64,000 nt of DNA from positions 42,240,527 through 42,304,526 of the forward strand of contig OX485808.1 in the NCBI GenBank assembly GCA_950295325.1, written 5' to 3'. Within the stretch, counting starts at the first letter, position 1, and each line of letters opens with the position of its first letter. This stretch comes from Polytrichum commune. Its lineage: Eukaryota > Streptophyta > Polytrichopsida > Polytrichales > Polytrichaceae. This document shows, in pieces, positions 4,099-29,098 of the stretch. The notes beneath the pieces are model-generated. The model did not search any database and was not told where the DNA came from. It saw only the letters and a program-made list of their open reading frames with translations. A program made the position numbers and the translations under genes.

Positions 4099-7000
4099 AT
4101 TGTACCAGGCATTATCCTCACCTTGCCTACTTTGCCCATTCTCAGTGTTGGTGCTTGTGGAAGCATCGATGGATCGTTGCGGTGCTTGGGAATCCATCAA
4201 AGCCGCATTCCTTACATCAAAATCCTTTTTGATGGGTGGCATCTGGTACCAAGTACTACACTCATTGTGCCTAGTAAATTTCATAGTTTCAGTGCCTGTG
4301 CTTGTCATACCTCTTGGAGGACAATTTTTTCTCTGCATATCAGATAATATGTCTAATATTTTCTGGCAGTCTTCTTTCTCAAGCTGATGGTGCGGTTTGC
4401 TGCCTTCACCAGTGTAAGGGCTACTTGCCTGATTGCGTGTCCGTGTTTCTGGTGCACACTCGCCACAAACTTTGTGATATTTGTTTCCACTCGGTTGATT
4501 CTTTGGAAGTATTTCATGGTTATTAAAATTGGTTTCCTTGTTGCTCATGTTTGTCAATTGCTGGACTGTACACAGAGGGCTACTCGCCCGGTCACAGGTC
4601 TGACCTTGGTAAACTGCACACTCATCACAAACTTTGTTTTCATCACTTCTTCCTCTACTCTGTTTTTTCTTTGGTGAGGATCTCTTTGGGGGACTTCCGC
4701 CATATTTTTCATGGTCTTTCAGAGGGTGACCACAAACCGGGCATTGCTCATTGATGTCTCGTCCTTTGTTTCCTTCCCAAATAAGACAACATGGAATAGT
4801 CTGCTTTGATTTGCCCTTGTCTTTCATTCGAAAGCTCATGACAGGTTGCATGCTCTGCTGTCCATCCCCTTCGACTGATGTACCCAGTTGTGGAATGCTC
4901 TCTTTTTTATCCCCACCGCCAGGTTTAAAGTTGACACTGCACTTCCTTGGCACTACTTCTTTGCGGTCACGAGAAAGTATGCGAGTTCGGCATGCAGCAG
5001 ATTTTGAGACAACAGTGCTGGTGTTGTTTTTCTGTTGGCTCACTGTGCAAGTGCATTGACACAACTGATGGTGCTTGTCGACTGGGTCTGAGGAAGCCCT
5101 GCCATGAATTTTTTCAGGCAGTTTTTCAGGATTCTGACAAACTCTCTCTTCCTCCACCCTGCATATTTAGGTGGCAGGTTAGCATCTCCTGAGAAAGATT
5201 GATTTAACAAAGGTTGAACAACATCTGCAGACAAGGGAATATATAGTTAATGTTGATCCTACCTCAGGTCACTTGTCAGGTGAATTGCGGCGTCATCTGC
5301 AACCTCAAACAACACAGGGATTGGCATGTATTATTGCAATGTATATGACAATTGTCGAACCATACTCATGTCAAATGGAGAAAAGTGGTGTTCTTAACCT
5401 GGCTTCGCAGTCTACGTCTTCCCATTCCAGGCTCTTGATTGTGCTTCTCTTGGGGGACGGGCTCGTTCCTGTGAGTTCTGGTAGAATGTGTGCCTGCAAT
5501 CCATTACTTGTGCACACCAATAGAATGCGCCAAGCAGCCGTCACTTCCGTTCCGAGTCTTCTGCACAGGTCTATAGCCGGACAGTAGAACGAGCAACACC
5601 CCAACCATGATTTGAAGTTAAGACAACCCACACATCTCCATGTTGTAGTTTCGTAGAGAATCACTCGTTCCGATGTCCCGACCTGTTGCGAAGAAGAAGC
5701 AATGGTTGACCAGTCTGTTAGAAGTGAGGTCCCTGCTGCCAAAAGACCTCCGTCTGCACGAAAGCTCAAACACATTACGGGAACATCGCCACAATTGCCT
5801 GTCCAATATGCCGTCCACTTCTGGTGGCTGGAATATCGTATCCATACCCTAACGTTCCCCTCGCATGTCCCAACAGCCAAGTATTCTGGAGTTCGCAACA
5901 CTTCCAGTATGTTGCTTAAACCTGAAGAACAGAAACCCCTCCTGTTTGAAATTGTTTTGATACACTTGTTTGAACTTCAAACAGTAATTGAAGAAGACCT
6001 TTCAATATAGTAGTCTGTCTCAAATTGGATGGTTGATCATGCATGTGAAACCTTTAAAGACCTTGCACATTAGGGTTTCCTAATATCTGATGTGAGCAGA
6101 TCTAGTAATTTCCGTAAAGGATTCTCCTGTCGCAGTGAGCAGTGTACAACAAGGGTTGTGATCAGACCTAGTCTATTGCACTTGTTTGGACTTCAAATGG
6201 ATATGGAAGAAGACCGTCCCACATAGCCGTCACGAATTGAATCGTTGATCATGCATCCGAAACTTTTGAAGACCTCACATATTAGGTTTCCTAATACCTG
6301 ATGTGAGCGGATCTAGTAATGCTTCGGGAGCATTTTCGGAAATGTTTATCTTGTTCCATTTAGCAATGTACAGTAAGAGCTGTGATCGGGCCTAGTTTGA
6401 GACAGTTGTTGGACTGCAAATAGTAAAGGAAGAAGAGCTTCCAACATAGCAGTCTCAAATTGAATGGTTGATCATGCATCCAAAATCTTCGAAGACCTCA
6501 TCCATTAGGGTTTCTTCATACCTGATGTGAGCGGGTCCAGTAATGCTTCGTGAGCATTTTGCGAGAGGTTCTCTTCCCGCAGTGAGCAGTGGACAGCAAG
6601 AGCTGTGATTTCCCTCTCGCCTGTAGATAACAACGTCCTGGACCTCTTCCATGGCGAGTCCATGGAGATGTTGTTGCCATCGTCACCTTGTGCACCTCGC
6701 ATGGCCCAGAATCTCACCTTTCCATCTTGACAACCCGTGCCAATCTCCCATGACTCTCCGAGAAACTCCAAAATTCCGGCAGATGACCAGGAGCCCTGTA
6801 CAGCTTCAGAGCACAAAGGGCAGATTCCTGGCCCACCATCCCCTCGGAATGGGTTAGGCCCGAATGGTTGCTTGAGTTGCAAAGTGGCAACATTTGTCTC
6901 ACAAAGCATGGCTCCATCCGCAAGCCTCCAAACACGGATAGAGCCATCCATTGCCGCGGAAGCCATGGCCTGACCATCTGCTTTCACAGTGATGCAAACA

Positions 7001-7524
7001 ATGAACGCAGAGTGACGGCCAATGCAAAAGACTCTTGCTCTGTCAATGTCCACTTTATGCATACTGCTTGCTGCTGATCTCTTGCAATCATGGTGCAGTT
7101 GGAGAGGAGTGGCTCCCGGCAATTTTGTGAATAGAATCCTGCTTGACTGCACTTGATGAAAGACAATCTCGTTCGTTCTACCAGGGATAAACTCGAAACC
7201 TCCCCATTGAACGTTGACAGCCTCCAATGCCAGGTCTGCATGTGAAGTTCCGTTACTATGAGAGACATGGACTTGGAAGGCTGAAATGGGGACGAGCTCG
7301 GGAGCAATGTGACCTCCTCCCTTTTTAAAAATGTATGTGACCAGTAAACCCCCGGCTCTCAGAACTGCGAGGCAATACTCTTGATTTAGGTCCCAATGTG
7401 CTATTCCTGTAAAATCTGTGTTGCTGCAAAAATGAAGCGGAGAGCCGCATGACTTTCGAACGCTTGCTTGTGCCGGAGTCGCAGGAGGCAGAGGTACACG
7501 CACCAACACCAACTCCGGGTTCAT
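3976..7524 (-). CDS. WD40-repeat protein with Cys-rich C-terminal tail, 902 aa
   Basis: Three exons, 7524-6522, 5921-5399 and 5158-3976, join in phase (1, then 2) to give 2,709 nt with one stop. The donors are TCAG|GTATGA and CCAG|GTTAAG. The acceptors are TTCTTCAG and ATATGCAG, the latter preceded by a branch-like TGCTAAC. WD-type blades are clear near residues 178-203 (DGSIRVWRLADG), 250-276 (DGKVRFW) and 345-362 (EGNVRVW), with a weaker one at about 373-425. From about residue 510 the protein is a Lys/Ser/Gln-rich low-complexity region with CxC and CxxC pairs (QLCQCTC, CPVCGHPLKDHE near 648, CDEC, CGEC). WD40 propellers are generally binding scaffolds, and the Cys pairs could bind zinc. 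Both are inference. I do not recognise the family. The ATG chosen opens the long first-exon frame. Confidence 0.7.
5962..6609. repeat. Threefold tandem repeat of about 215 bp covering an exon end and intron
   Basis: Three units lie head to tail, at about 5962-6178, 6179-6402 and 6403-6609. Each carries 'gaatggttgatcatgcatcc', 'gaagacctca', 'ttagggtttc', 'ctgatgtgagcggatc' and 'gcagtgagcagtg'. The third unit contains the real 3' end of WD40 exon 1 and its donor. The other two now lie in intron 1. Confidence 0.85.
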
Positions 7525-9662
7525 ACTTCCATCATTCTCCTACGTACCTTGCTGTGGAAGCTTTATAAATTTTGTGTTTCCTTTTGCTTTTTTCATCCCT
7601 CTCACCTCTGTCAATCCCAAGCATTTCAACATTTCAAAGTCACCAATGCTTGCGGGTCGTGTACGCAGCTCATGGGCTGCATAACCCTGCGGAGATAATC
7701 CATCAATCGGTCAGGAATATCTACTATTAGATCAATTCAGATGAATAAAAGGAAACATTCAAGACTACTAAGGATTTCTCAGCATGTGATCATAATCACA
7801 TCCTTAGATGCGTTATTGTTGTATCACTCCAGGTTTCTCAGATCAACAATTTTGGGTTAAGCTGGAAAACCTAATTCAAAATGTCAAATCCAGATGCAAG
7901 AACTTCATAGGAAGCTCACCACTTAGAAGCTTTGTAGTCTTACCATCAAAGAAGACATCGCAGAAGGAAGTTCGCTCCGACGCAAAAAGTGCCACAGATT
8001 CGAATGAACACCGCGTTACTGAGGGACAAAATTACACATGATATTGCTGCAGTCGCAGAAGAGTCTGACTCCAATTTGTTGCGACGGATAAAAGTGCATG
8101 ATACTGCCGGCCACAAATGTGTACGTTTTCGAAAAAGAATGACATGTTATACCCTAAACCTCCCACACCAGTGCTTTGTCGTGAGAGAATACCTTAATGA
8201 CTTTAATTGGCAAATGCCCACAGTACCGAAGAAACGCAATGGAAAAGTCACTGCAGCGATTAATCGTCATGATCTCAGAGACAATAAAAATAATATGTAA
8301 CTTTCATCACATGCTCAAAAATTCATTGCAACTGCTTCCGACATGTGTGTGGATGACCTTGTACCCTTCTTTCATAGTAGACTGCCAGGTTTCGGCATCA
8401 CCTCTCAAGAACCAAATTACAATGGAAGTAACTACAATTTGTGGTTTAAACGGTGCAAAGATCTCTTCCAGAAGCTCAAGGCAAATTTTCCATGTCAACA
8501 CCCTCATCACGCTGTCATCAAACATGGCAACCGATACTTATTCAATGTCCGAACAAAATCCGGTGCAACAAACTGTTGAAACAAATTTCAGATAAATTCC
8601 AGGCACTGCTTGCTCCTAATTCATTCACCCCTTCAATCTCGTGTATCATCCTCATCATCATGAACCAAACCACCATAATCAGAACAAATTCAATTAGTCC
8701 TGCATAATTGTGGTGTCCACAATTTAGCACTACTTAAAGCTTGTCTGTAAGTAGCGACTCCAAATGCTTGCAGATCCTAGCCAACATTACCCACCGCACT
8801 CAGGCACTTAACCCTAAATTCAATAACCAGAAAAAGAAAAAAAGAAAAAAAGATCATCACAATCCTCAGAGAAAAACGGAGATGTCTAATTTCCACCACT
8901 TTCCTCTACTCTTGGTTCAACATCAAACCATATGGAGCTCATGAATACTCTTCGTCACCTTCCTGTGTCAAATCTGAAGCTATGTAACCTGTCTCTTCGA
9001 CGGCCATAGTGGCCACGGGAAATTGTCCCCATCACGTAGATATCTCTCCTGTAAATGTACGCATCGCGTACACGTTCATCTCCCCCGTGTGTGTCCCTTT
9101 TGAGGTGCGGCGGGGCGGCAGTTACGCTGCATGTAAAAGAGGCAGCCCAGGATGTTCATCACATGTACATACCAAGATCCCAAGGGATGTGGCTGCCCCA
9201 TTTTCCAAAACAATGTGTTGTAGATGACGTGGCAACCATTTCATGAGTTGTATATGATTTTGGAGAAAGTCTTATTGTACCACAATTTACCCTATGCACA
9301 TGGAAAATTAAGCACAAAATGAACTATTTTGGCCTAAACGTGCCACATGTCATCATGTGAGTGGTTGGAACATCTTCATAGATGACGTGGAATCAAATTT
9401 AGGTAGGGATGTGCCCGATCATACATGAACATATGATATTAAGGGCAAACTTCCGTGGGCACATTTGTGTGAGACTTATCATGGGTGAGGGTGAAAAACC
9501 AAAGAAACATTGTGTAGTCTAGGTATTTGTATTTTGGTCAACTTGACCCCTAGAGTCAAGGTGTCAAAGACCTCAATCTAGTCTAGTCGGGATCAATCAG
9601 AATGAATGAGGAAAGAATTAACGACAAACTTGAGAAGGCCACGTTCTAACTGCACCTTATGA
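7525..9662. other. Intergenic, no supported gene
   Basis: Several short open frames occur at 7800-8950, but none shows a recognisable motif or a consistent exon chain. The first few hundred bases should hold the promoter of the minus-strand WD40 gene. A short A-rich run lies near 8830-8850. Confidence 0.5.
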
Positions 9663-24516: not shown

Positions 24517-26874
24517 CAGTTCTGGGTTAGGTCCTTGTATCTACATTTACACATTCTCGCAGAACAGGTCATATACACAAGTGCTTACAGAGTTTGTCCT
24601 GTTTTGACCGCATATCCTGTATAGTCCATGTAGTGCAGCTCCGTCTTGTCATTTTCGGAAGCATTTATACATACATAGTTTTCTGTAGAAGTTAAATTTG
24701 TACATTCATAGTTTTCTTCAGAATTCATTTCCCTCATTATTGTTAGTATAGTTAGAATACTGGTTTCGCGATTGAATGGGAGTTCTCTTATAATTCGCAG
24801 GTATAGTCGAGTACACAGTGTCTGTACAAATTTCTACAGCCTTCAATCCCTTCCAACTGAGCATTTGTAAGTGCTGTCCATGTGCAGTCCCATGTAAGTC
24901 TATGATGCACTAGAAGTGCTGCTATGGCGCAATCTTGCTCATGGTTCAACTCTCTTTTAATTGATTCTCTCATCTTTTTACACCTTTCAACTTGTTCGAA
25001 AAGGGTCACCTCAGAGATGGAATTCTGGGACCACTGTGTGTGCCAGTCACCTTACATTCTACTCTTCATCTTTGAGAAATTATAGAGTAACTTACACCCC
25101 GAAACCTCCCTTTGACGACTTTAGTCACTATCCCAAGATCTATTGAGTGAACGAATGATTGGGCTGTGCTACTTTGCGGCCGAGTCAATCCACCTCCAAA
25201 ATTGTAAACTAATGAATCAAACTAAGCTTCAGTATATTTCCAAAGACAAGTTCCTCAAAGGTATATTTTTATATCATTTATTCAACTAAAATAAGTTGTT
25301 TTTGATGCAACTTTGTTCGTTCATCCACGCAGCACACCGTTCTATTTTGAGGCACTACAGTATCTCGCAAGAAAAGATGGCAACCTACAACGTGAACAAT
25401 GTGTCCAGGTACATCACTGAGATCGTCAGAAGTAACTTAACTGAACACAATTATCTGAATTCAGCGTGAATCCTTACAGAAAAGTGCTTCTCGTGAATCG
25501 CGCAGAACAATTTTTCGTAAAGACGAAGCAAAACCTGCCAGGAGGTTTTTCGGACTCCTGCGATGGAGAGAAAAGTCGGCAAACTGTCATCATGTGAGTT
25601 CCGTGATCATCGTGTCAGAGTACGGCACAGCCAAGCTTTCTCCTCATATCTTCAAAAAAGTTTATGTCCTTCCAGTAATCATTAAGTCGTACTCGAACGA
25701 TAATTCTTATACAGTCTTGCGATTGATACCATAAGATCAGGGATCTCACTATCTTATTGCTCTCTCTCTCTTGTTGTGCAAAGTTCTCAAATATTGATCT
25801 TCACACCTACAAAATTATATTTAATACAGGCTTAGAAATGGGAAATTATTCATTTACATGAGTTGATCGGCACCTCCAATGAACTTCTTGTATGTACATG
25901 GTGTAAATGGGGTGTGAATGTACCTCAACTTGGAAAGTAGCTAGAATCTGTAGACTGTACACTTCATGCCGTGTTTCGAAAATTGCTCTGTACATATTGG
26001 CTACTTCACTAACGAACCTGGCGATCCCGTGCATCATGCAAGGACACTGAAAGCATTTTGAGGAGTTCTTGTTTGATTGCCAGGTCTCAGTCCCTGCTAC
26101 TTTACATTTCGTGATTTTTTTTGCCCTTGAGACTCCCTGCAATGACACTACACCGGAGAGAGGGTCCCGCCTCAAGGTCAGACACAGCTCGGTCATGTAA
26201 TATGACTCCTGTATGACGTCAATTGACCGTCCATCGTGAATGAGATACTTCAACTAGTACACACAAGATACTTCCCCTCAAAATCCTTGTGTGATGATCT
26301 TGATATATGCAGATATTCACTTCTTCGTCGATCAGCCTAAGTTTCAGTGCAGTTGATGTGCTCGTCGGACTAACTTTGCCCTCAAATGTCCGCTTGACCT
26401 GGTAATGTTTCACCTTCCTCTACTTGAGAGAATTTTCCAAGTTGCTGGGGATCCCGGGGTGGCAATTCTAGGCCTTTATCATAAGTTATTAATATGAACT
26501 TATTATCATTATGTTGTAGCATGTTCACTTATGTTTGTGAGTACAAAGGTGCCTAGTAGTACTTATGGTGCATATTATTAGAATCATGATACATAACAAT
26601 CGTAATAAAGCCTTAATAAAGGATGAGGCCATATCCGTCATTGTGTACAAGCGATCTAAAGTACGCAACCCATGATCATAGGAAGATGCTCTTATTTTTT
26701 CAACTAGATTCCTGTAGAATATTATTAGAAGTTATATTGAGTAGCACTTTAGTAAGTCTATATTGACTTTAATTATGTTTCATACCCCTGCTCATGAGAA
26801 GTAATAACTGCTACCCTGGGCTCTCGATGTAATTTTCATGCCAGGGTAGCAATTACCATGGCTGGACTCTTCAC
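24517..26874. other. SPP 3' flank and intergenic DNA
   Basis: The first few hundred bases are probably SPP 3' untranslated sequence (AT-rich, with several AATAAA-like words). The rest holds only short frames without motifs. Confidence 0.4.
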
Positions 26875-27130
26875 TACACTAAAGAGTCCTATTAGTGTGG
26901 GTCGCACTAATTTTCTAGTCACGGTGGAATTCATGTGGGTGCAAGACCTTGAGTCTTCTCCTAGGTTTTCATAAAGACTTCTGACCAACACATTGAATAT
27001 TAAAAATATAGAACAAAAGTAGCACAAAATAAAATAATCACCTAAATTTATTTTTTTAGAAAACAATTATTATGGCCCACACTAATTTCCTAGTAAAAAT
27101 GAAGTGTGGGTTGAAAATTAATGTCCCCCA
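26875..27130. mobile_element. CACTA-end MITE-like element, right end unclear
   Basis: It starts 'tacactaaagagtcctatta' then 'gtgtggg', the same terminus as at 9663 and 1411. The interior parallels the 9663 copy ('ctagtcacggtggaa', 'ataaaataaaataatcacct'). The right terminus is not obvious, so the end is approximate. Confidence 0.5.
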
Positions 27131-27306
27131 CTTTAATTCTCATTATGAAAATTAACCTGAGCTCTAGAAAATAACTCTAGCCCACAAGAATAGGAAACAC
27201 GTTATTCAATATTTTGAGAGAGTGGGATCCTCTCATAATAATATTGGCCATTTGGACACCTAAAAGTCATGTTAGGTTGGTAAATACTAGATTATACTTC
27301 AGACGT

Positions 27307-28029
27307 GTAGTTTCCATTAAAATGAGAGTATGTTAAGCTACTCATTTAGGTTGAGTCGACCTAAATGAGGACAATATTTTGTTAATTTAGATTGAGTCGA
27401 CCTAAATGAGGACATTATGTTGTAAATTTAAGTTGAGTCGACCTAAATGAGGACAATATTTTGTCAATTTAGGTTGAGTCGACCTAAATGAGAACATTAT
27501 GTTGTCAATTTAGGTTGAGTCGACCTAAATGAGGACAATATTTTGTCAATTTAGGTTGAGTCGACCTAAATGAGGACATTATGTTGTCAATTTAGGTTGA
27601 GTCGACCTAAATGAGGACATTATGTTGTCAATTTAGGTTGAGTCGACCTAAATGAGGACATTATGTTGTCAATTTAAGTTGAGTCAACCTAAATGAGGAC
27701 ATTATGTTGTCAATTTAAGTTGAGTCAACCTAAATGAGGACATTATGTTGTCAAGTTAGGTTGAGTCGACCTAAATGAGGATAATATTTTGTCAATTTAA
27801 GTTAAGTCGACCTAAATGAGGACATTATGTTGTCAATTTGGGTTGAGTCGACCTAAATGAGGACATTATGTTGTCAATTTAGGTTGAGTCGACCTAAATG
27901 AGGACAATTATGTTAGTCAATTTAGGTTGAGTCGACCTAAATGAGGACAATATGTTGTCAATTTACGTTGAGTCGACCTAAATGAGTCGATTTCCCAGCT
28001 TATCATACTCTCATTTTAATGGAAACTAC
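27307..28029. mobile_element. TIR-bounded element, 723 bp, filled by a minisatellite
   Basis: A 33-bp near-perfect inverted pair bounds the element: 'gtagtttccattaaaatgag' then 'agtatgttaagct' at 27307-27339, and its complement at 27997-28029 with one mismatch. Nearly all the DNA between is the 41-bp array. There is no coding frame. A target duplication is not obvious. This is probably a non-autonomous transposon whose interior expanded, though it could also be a foldback-type structure. Confidence 0.75.
27345..27986. repeat. 41-bp minisatellite, 15 full units plus one partial
   Basis: Fourteen of the fifteen full units are 41 bp and one (near 27880) is 43 bp. Each unit has an imperfect palindrome, atttaggt-tgagtcg-acctaaat, around a SalI-type GTCGAC core, followed by 'gaggacattatgttgtca'. 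Two unit types alternate in the left part (acattatgttg against acaatattttg). Two units carry GAGTCAAC in place of GAGTCGAC. Confidence 0.95.
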
Positions 28030-29098
28030 GGCGGAATTTACGGCGGAAAATCAAATGTTATTTTTTTACTTGTTCTCTACAACTTCCAGTGGTTTTCATT
28101 TCATTCTTGGATTAATAGTTTGCTTTATGTACTCTCAATTCACTGGAAAACTCTCATTTTAATGAATATTGTGTTAGGACTATTTAACTAGTTTAGTTCT
28201 TGAAATTTTGATATTGATTTTCATTCTTCATGTCTAACTCTGCATATTACAATCTTTTTCTATGTCATATCAGTGTTATATTCATGTCATCAGTTACATC
28301 ACGTAATTTTTCACTCATACGTGTATCGTGTACCTAGCAAGTCTATTTGTCAGATTCTCTTGTTTGTTTCAAGGATTGCATTTGAAGTTACTTGTTCAAA
28401 TGTATGTGTATGATGGCGCAACAATGTGGAGTTAACTTATGAATTGGCCTTATTTGTCATCCACAAATAGTTTAAGTTCCCAAGCACTAAATTATTTGTG
28501 AGAGTGAGACAACTTTGGCCATAGGATTGGATCAAAATTTGTTCCAATTCACAAGGGGCTAAAATTAGGAATGAAATTATGTGAAAAGTCACAGAAAACC
28601 TCAAGTGGAAATTCTTTTACTTTATTAAATGATCACATATGCCCTCCCAATTGTGATGTTGACCATTAACTTCAAAAGGGTTTTTCTATTAAAAAAAAAT
28701 GGTACACAAATCTATACAATCGTTGCTTAGAATGAAGCTTACAATAATGTACTAGGTATCAAATGAAAATATCTCATAATTAGATTTTTGAGCATAATTT
28801 TGTTATACATAAAAGTATTAAAAATTGTCAAAAAATCAACATTTTATCACTTTAGCTCATTTTCATGGGGCTCACTTTGTATGACATAGTGTTTACTTTC
28901 CTTGGAATTTATTACACATTATAAGATGTCCAAATCTCCTGAAAGTAACCCTACTAAACTTGTCACAATTGTTTTTTGTAAATAAATGTCTGCCTTGAGG
29001 ATGAAATTTGTTTAGTGGTGGAAATGGCGAATCATCCACCAATTCAAGATGGTGATTGGTCATAGCCAATCAACTCATGAACAAAATTCAAAATTTAT
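28030..29098. other. Intergenic, nothing recognised
   Basis: AT-rich with no exon chain. A second 'ctctcattttaatg' word at 28149 echoes the element terminus at 28008. Confidence 0.4.

Follow-up and report, generated by a model that had tools for sequence, protein, structure and literature searches.

Which unit is repeated at a locus where a tandem array of short palindromes lies between two inverted repeats, where does that unit end, and what might the palindromes be for? The locus belongs to a 64,000-nucleotide stretch of Polytrichum commune DNA, the whole of which we call the window. A first-pass annotation had described here a 41-bp palindromic minisatellite enclosed by a 33-bp inverted pair and read the whole as a possible mobile unit with the pair as its termini. 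It had also suggested that the palindromes could be a binding-site array, a source of hairpin RNA or a by-product of repair.

The Array and the Ends of the Element

We recovered the repeats themselves as they had been described. The inverted pair, 33 nt in each arm, is nearly perfect (complementarity 97%), and the tandem array comprises 15.6 copies of the 41-bp unit with 93% matches (Table 1). We counted 16 palindromes with 8-bp arms (ATTTAGGT/ACCTAAAT, centre TGAGTCG), starting from position 27344 to position 27961. The suggested folding potential of the array was also upheld by single-stranded DNA prediction, with −171.7 kcal/mol vs −56.4 in shuffled sequences (z = −23.7; none of 20 shuffles as low). 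The claim that neighbouring units alternate between two variants held for the first six of the 15 spacers but not for the remainder (types FTFTFTTTTTFTTGa).

The inverted pair does not form the ends of the repeated unit, as had been supposed, but is subterminal. The sequence beyond it is common to other copies, and comparison of six long-flank loci places the limits of the similarity at 27195/27196 on the left and at 28175/28176 on the right. The unit is thus 980 bp long; its termini are AACAC...GTGTT, with a 4-bp duplication at the ends. The two ends of the window copy agree at 19 of their first 26 bases. Identical 4-bp duplications were present in 42 of the 47 copies with readable flanks (at least four bases on each side, a condition under which 47 of 64 two-ended copies qualify), three of the others differing at one base and two at two. 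One variant copy, L030, has the end letters AACCTTATATTCA, altered alike at both ends, as expected for a transposon end.

Table 1. Coordinates of the element in the window, and palindrome types of the group.
Feature	Coordinates in window	Strand	Sequence	Basis or remark
Whole element, non-autonomous DNA transposon, 980 bp	27196..28175	+		Extent common to six long-flank loci; both ends readable in 64 of 72 loci
Left target-site duplication	27192..27195	.	AGGA	Flank comparison
Right target-site duplication	28176..28179	.	AGGA	Flank comparison
Left terminal inverted repeat	27196..27220	+	AACACGTTATTCAATATTTTGAGAG	End comparison
Right terminal inverted repeat	28151..28175	-	AACACAATATTCATTAAAATGAGAG	End comparison
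Inner (subterminal) inverted repeat, left arm	27307..27339	+		Core also about 125 bp inside the end of transposase-bearing relative E
Inner (subterminal) inverted repeat, right arm	27997..28029	-		Inverted-pair detection
Tandem array, 41-bp unit	27344..27986	+	ATTTAGGTTGAGTCGACCTAAAT	16 copies of the palindrome, at most 3 mismatches
Palindrome type A			CCCACGGG(T/C)GNNC(A/G)CCCGTGGG	
Palindrome type B			GTTTGGGTCGNNCGACCCAAAC	
Palindrome type L106			GTTTCCTCTCGGCCGAGAGGAAAC	
Palindrome type L117			CATTTACGAACGTGCGTTCGTAAATG	
Palindrome type E and window			CATTTAGGTTGAGTCGACCTAAATG	

The insertion in the window sits within another dispersed repeat. That repeat, of about 307 bp, covers window positions 26896-27195 and 28180-28186, so that the element lies near its end. 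Searching the genome with the joined flanks of the window copy (40 best candidates scored) gave 42 rows, of which two were the locus itself, two were short partial matches and 38 were other places. The junction was crossed in 37 of these 38, by 21-24 bases in five cases and by only 5-8 bases in 32, since the flanking repeat seems to end there. For a second copy, L065, the same search returned 41 rows (again with the 40 best candidates scored), two of them self-matches; all 39 others crossed the junction, 38 by at least 222 bases and one by 163. The mobile-unit reading of the first-pass annotation is borne out by the 4-bp duplications and by these empty sites, which are uninterrupted in other copies of the flanking repeats. 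The identity and mobility of the element are well supported.

Copies in the Genome

The termini are not restricted to the window; their presence here alone had been named in advance as an argument against mobility. A 26-base stretch of the inner repeat was found 254 + 258 times in the 408-Mb genome with up to 3 mismatches (reversed control 0), giving a copy number by inner repeat of about 255, and a separate genome-wide search with the 41-bp unit gave 441 + 418 occurrences (reversed control 0). The converse situation, an array without termini, was not encountered either on contig C1, where all 21 unit places among the matches listed fall inside fetched element copies.

Our sample of 72 loci consisted of the window and of 71 loci fetched by the exact inner 26-mer from the first 100 places listed (contig C1 and part of C2), a selection in which diverged copies are under-sampled. 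Eight of the 72, in which one end was not found (L018, L023, L032, L038, L045, L058, L074, and L081), were excluded, including one with 23 unit matches (L032); L001 was also left out of the unit and end count. The 64 two-ended copies were 416-980 bp long, that of the window being the longest. All carry the exact 26-mer and, except for the window, were picked through the inner repeat, the array playing no part in the selection; each contains 2-16 palindromes, and none has 0 or 1.

We could type 300 of the 342 spacers between palindromes. If a type may recur, the typed spacers are arranged as F-T-G-H-a in 44 of the 64 copies, which do not include that of the window. Shuffling the spacer order produced this pattern in 11.6 copies on average and in at most 19 over 200 shuffles. 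The likely starting point is a founder with some five different units, after which the arrays would have grown and shrunk site by site. Within the MITE copies, the palindrome was hardly better conserved than the spacer: mean entropy was 0.144 vs 0.220 over 211 units of exact length 41, an excess that comes mainly from two variant positions and counts against the explanation favoured below.

Locus L001, whose inner repeats are 5.6 kb apart, was considered as an autonomous partner and rejected, the intervening sequence being a nested insertion (CAGCCC...GGGCTG) with an 8-bp duplication, ATGAGGAC. This insertion (L001:341-5549) lies inside a MITE array unit; we would call it hAT-like from its ends and from our own reading of its predicted protein, for which Pfam gave no family above cut-off.

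Two further observations concern other parts of the window and genome. A 223-bp direct repeat (2.1 copies, window 6131-6609) partly overlaps an ORF with a WD40 match (6508-7539). Light-harvesting proteins gave 58 matches in the genome, which indicate a green plant, and 14 equal-score matches to chlorophyll a/b-binding protein are clustered in about 95 kb (G000:C5:1751760-1846160).

Relatives With Transposase Genes

Copy L023 (C1:46804k) leads into L068, a sequence with a transposase-like ORF. A search with the L068 protein yielded 227 matches from the best 150 of 1,690 candidates. The L068 ORF itself had no Pfam match; PF25273 (DUF7869) was matched by representatives of two classes, A (692 aa, E = 2.3e-46) and B (519 + 504 aa, E = 1.2e-40). 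In a genome search for DUF7869, the best 150 of 1,491 candidates were scored and all were over the cut-off, E (see below) and L068 both being absent among the 150 matches listed. The same family search gave 0 of 14 control genomes, and the A transposase had no match in viral contigs. The sole PDB match to the transposase (E = 0.92) provided no usable relative. Aspartates in HDKMD, DNCAKDNK, and GHTHxDxDA are common to A and B where the two could be aligned, at the level of sequence only. DUF7869 is not named in the open-access literature searched.

Class B includes two complete elements, B1 (18,773 bp; loci L085/L090/L094) and B2 (16,647 bp; loci L086/L091/L095). Both start and finish with AACACTATATTCG..., with ends AACACTATATTCGTTAAATTGAGACTTT on both sides, and are flanked by the target duplications TTAT (B1) and ATGT (B2). 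The two ends of B1 agree at 26 of 26 first bases, and its first 26 bases match the right end of the window element at 22 positions and the left end at 18. Genome-wide, the B end occurs 589 + 595 times with up to 2 mismatches (control 0); the 90 exact B ends listed on contig C1 include 35 adjacent facing pairs, 21 of them spaced 14-19 kb. B1 has four minus-strand ORFs of 257-474 aa besides smaller ones, one of them with a NIF-type (NIF/FCP1-like) phosphatase domain (PF03031, E = 1.6e-13); for the remaining ones of the four, Pfam gave no match. The B-element ORF g5 (L090:2817-4238), also without a Pfam match, contains the stretch FWLIDGQHS, which in our impression, and as an impression only, recalls ParB/DGQHR proteins.

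The MITE is tied by one end only to another element, E (C5:42.23-42.25 Mb). The right end of E matches the left end of the window element in 131 of 154 columns (85%, 17 gaps), including the inner 26-mer exactly. E also has an array (155 bp × 5.2) upstream of its transposase, in which one palindrome equals that of the window over 25 bases exactly and the others differ by at least one base; the spacers of the two arrays did not align, and their periods differ. In L068, two similar palindromes (3 mismatches each) are located upstream of the N-terminal ORF. The transposases of E and L068, the only close relatives found for the window family, are both broken, with no ORF of at least 200 aa over the DUF7869 part in E and none of at least 90 aa in L068, which also counts against the explanation favoured below. 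Comparison of the window with the transposases of A, B and E gave nothing better than E = 0.54. The window family is short, numerous and without coding capacity, with inverted ends and target duplications, which are the features of MITEs. We consider it very likely that the element in the window is mobile and is a MITE belonging to the DUF7869 group.

Among known superfamilies, hAT is characterised by an 8-bp target duplication, with which the 4-bp duplication of the window element does not agree. Helitrons have neither terminal inverted repeats nor a target duplication, both of which are present here. The Sola superfamily, in the portion of its description available (PMC10741241), has 4-bp target duplications, variable termini, and some elements of more than 15 kb, and is reported from the moss Physcomitrella and as not common in flowering plants. 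The elements described here are alike in these respects. Their duplications are of 4 bp (42 of 47 MITE copies, as well as B1 and B2), and the agreement of their ends (26/26 in B1, 19/26 in the window) corresponds to the terminal inverted repeats of at least 11 bp by which Sola is also recognised. Sola is also defined by a DDD transposase, for which the aspartates common to A and B would at most be candidate residues. We call the group Sola-like, not Sola; the assignment is by description (duplication, ends, size) rather than by transposase sequence. Palindrome arrays before genes, present here in B, are unmentioned in the same portion of PMC10741241. The accessible parts of the open-access literature searched likewise contain no description of such arrays in Sola-like elements or before each gene of a DNA transposon.

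Palindromes Upstream of Transposases and Other Genes

To describe the surroundings of the transposases, we used about 2.3 kb before the matched stretch in 20 loci, hand-picked to span the identity range and hence not random (19 from the L068-protein match list and one, L118, from the DUF7869 search). A family palindrome was present in 19 of these 20 regions, and two or more times in 18; controls shuffled in blocks, with 2-base blocks only kept, had 0-2 palindromes of whatever type. L118 had no family palindrome and two unrelated ones, and L099 had only one family palindrome; both count against the explanation favoured below.

The palindromes fall into five types (Table 1). On a transposase tree of 23 pieces, from which L118 was left out, the type changes four times, the minimum possible for five types, vs 10.2 times on average with shuffled labels (0 of 200 as low as 4). 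Near-copies make clustering easy, and this test thus draws its weight from the separation of five branches (A, B, E, L106, and L117), the last two consisting of one row each.

B1 and B2 have five palindrome clusters each, and every cluster lies upstream of an ORF of its own, at a distance of no more than 1 kb. If clusters were placed at random, 0.80 (B1) and 0.86 (B2) of them on average would fall into such positions (P = 0.0002 and 0.00015, respectively). This test used stop-to-stop ORFs and was set up after the layout had been seen; g5 of B2, split by a stop (191 + 282 aa), was counted as one ORF, and the test covers in effect one family since B1 and B2 are near-copies. No family palindrome of B1 comes closer than 5.2 kb to its left end or 4.0 kb to its right end; for B2, these distances are 2.8 and 4.1 kb. 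As judged by eye, five palindrome groups are also enclosed by each of two other exact-end pairs on C1 (610757/628813 and 2112817/2129741).

The 22-bp B palindrome (20 fixed bases, two central bases varying) has 9,231 exact occurrences in the genome (reversed control 0). Among the first 100 listed, 61 are within the two C1 pairs just mentioned and 16 follow an end without a listed partner. Another 23 lie outside the listed exact B-end pairs (G000:C1:438279-478028 and 2154319-2159887), some of them at 32-bp spacing; these perhaps belong to other subfamilies or their MITEs, and they too count against the explanation favoured below.

Discussion

We propose that the window element is a gene-less cut-and-paste DNA transposon (MITE) that would be moved in trans by a DUF7869-type transposase. 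From gene-bearing ancestors of type E it would have retained one terminal region or more, together with an array of the palindrome of the group. The large relatives have, before the transposase and in B before each of the five genes, arrays of a palindrome of about 22-26 bp that is specific to the family. A homodimeric DNA-binding protein of the element, either the transposase or a partner protein, would bind these palindromes and control the transcription of the element itself, the array in the MITE serving as a handle or decoy for this protein. It seems to us probable that the palindromes serve an element-encoded protein as its sites. Slightly less firmly, we expect the full reading to hold, that of a MITE with palindromes as sites for a dimeric element-encoded protein that probably controls the transcription of its own genes. 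For the narrower proposition that such a protein would mainly control transcription rather than end pairing, we see the chances as even. Among the roles suggested in the first-pass annotation, the binding-site array is the one that our analysis favours; binding, a regulatory role, and mobilisation in trans are what we infer for it.

In maize En/Spm, subterminal arrays of a short motif are bound by the element-encoded TNPA, which also regulates transcription. The elements described here would resemble it in having short-motif arrays and a putative element-encoded binder, whereas the En/Spm motifs are subterminal and do not form arrays of long palindromes, and in B the clusters are located before genes, at distances of kilobases from either end. 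For tandem repeats in a non-autonomous element, a precedent is found in Tetris, a foldback element of Drosophila virilis with internal tandem repeats and ends shared with a MITE; according to the part of the source that is accessible (PMC4079207), it is non-autonomous and combines inverted ends with tandem repeats, like the window element. The repeats of Tetris, of about 220 bp, are inside its terminal inverted repeats, whereas the 41-bp array is in the middle of the window element and its palindrome is shared with a transposase-bearing relative. The SIRC repeats of Arabidopsis are, in the available portion of PMC10342631, repeat cassettes for which an origin from the interior of MITEs is proposed; they are short interrupted direct repeats whose terminal inverted repeats are thought to be lost, whereas these are kept here.

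The palindromes could instead be bound by the transposase purely for transposition, in synapsis or end bridging, more sites leading to better mobilisation and hence to array growth. The 2-16 sites kept in all 64 two-ended MITE loci, which were selected by the inner repeat (window apart), and the tracking of transposase clade by palindrome type would both agree with this, but the minimum of two sites may merely reflect the founder copy. In the B family, moreover, the palindromes are 2.8-5.2 kb from the ends, and their clusters sit before genes. We thus hold a purely transpositional role to be unlikely, while leaving it an appreciable chance.

We give distinctly less credit to the arrays being a neutral by-product, i.e., unstable tandem repeats without function, grown by slippage or unequal exchange. 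Such an origin would account for the variation from 2 to 16 units between copies, for local doublings of FT or T, and for the about equal conservation of palindrome and spacer within MITE copies. It agrees poorly with the comparison between families and clusters, in which periods and spacers change wholly (32 to 155 bp) but the palindrome stays, and with the occurrence of different palindromes at the same place in different clades.

The idea that the array is a hairpin source, its transcripts feeding small-RNA silencing or its DNA acting as cruciforms, appears more doubtful still, despite the palindromic units and their strong predicted folding. The changes in the stems are mostly one-sided: 63 one-sided, 0 compensated, and 6 both-sided unpaired changes among 168 B sites, and 125, 1, and 1, respectively, among 408 MITE sites. 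The 68 type A sites show 42 one-sided, 1 both-sided unpaired, and 26 both-sided still paired changes; the latter would favour a hairpin, but 23 of the 26 are one and the same two-sided replacement of T by C at position 9, by which two subtypes differ. Rfam also gave no match in 26500-29000 at the gathering threshold. The hairpin-RNA reading of the first-pass annotation is thus not favoured, and the variation of the sites would be that of a site read by a homodimer, less so that of a required hairpin stem. Finally, a transposon ending at the 33-bp pair (27307-28029) has practically no chance of being correct, near-perfect as the pair is and although its core is found hundreds of times, because similarity extends further, by 111 bp on the left side and by 146 bp on the right, up to sharp ends with duplications; the first-pass annotation was wrong about the boundaries and about the role of the pair.

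If the palindromes are sites of an element-encoded regulator, as we favour, a broader and more tentative picture can be drawn, to which we attach less than even expectation: that of transposons as self-contained regulons. An element of about 17 kb would put its own operator array before every gene, and a dimeric protein reading this operator would be among its products. The operator and its reader would co-evolve into a code private to each lineage. MITEs such as that of the window would be operator arrays on the move, competing for the reader or titrating it, and would spread thousands of potential control sites over the genome. Should the palindromes be operators, a single genome would hold a number of operator-protein pairs that are independent of each other but similarly placed, including one whose exact sites number 9,231. 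The co-evolution of protein and DNA, as well as the contest between a transposon and its non-autonomous parasite, would then be directly testable. DNA transposons of 14-19 kb with cargo genes would thereby be described as a family, and the DUF7869 proteins would be provided with a role and a regulatory grammar.
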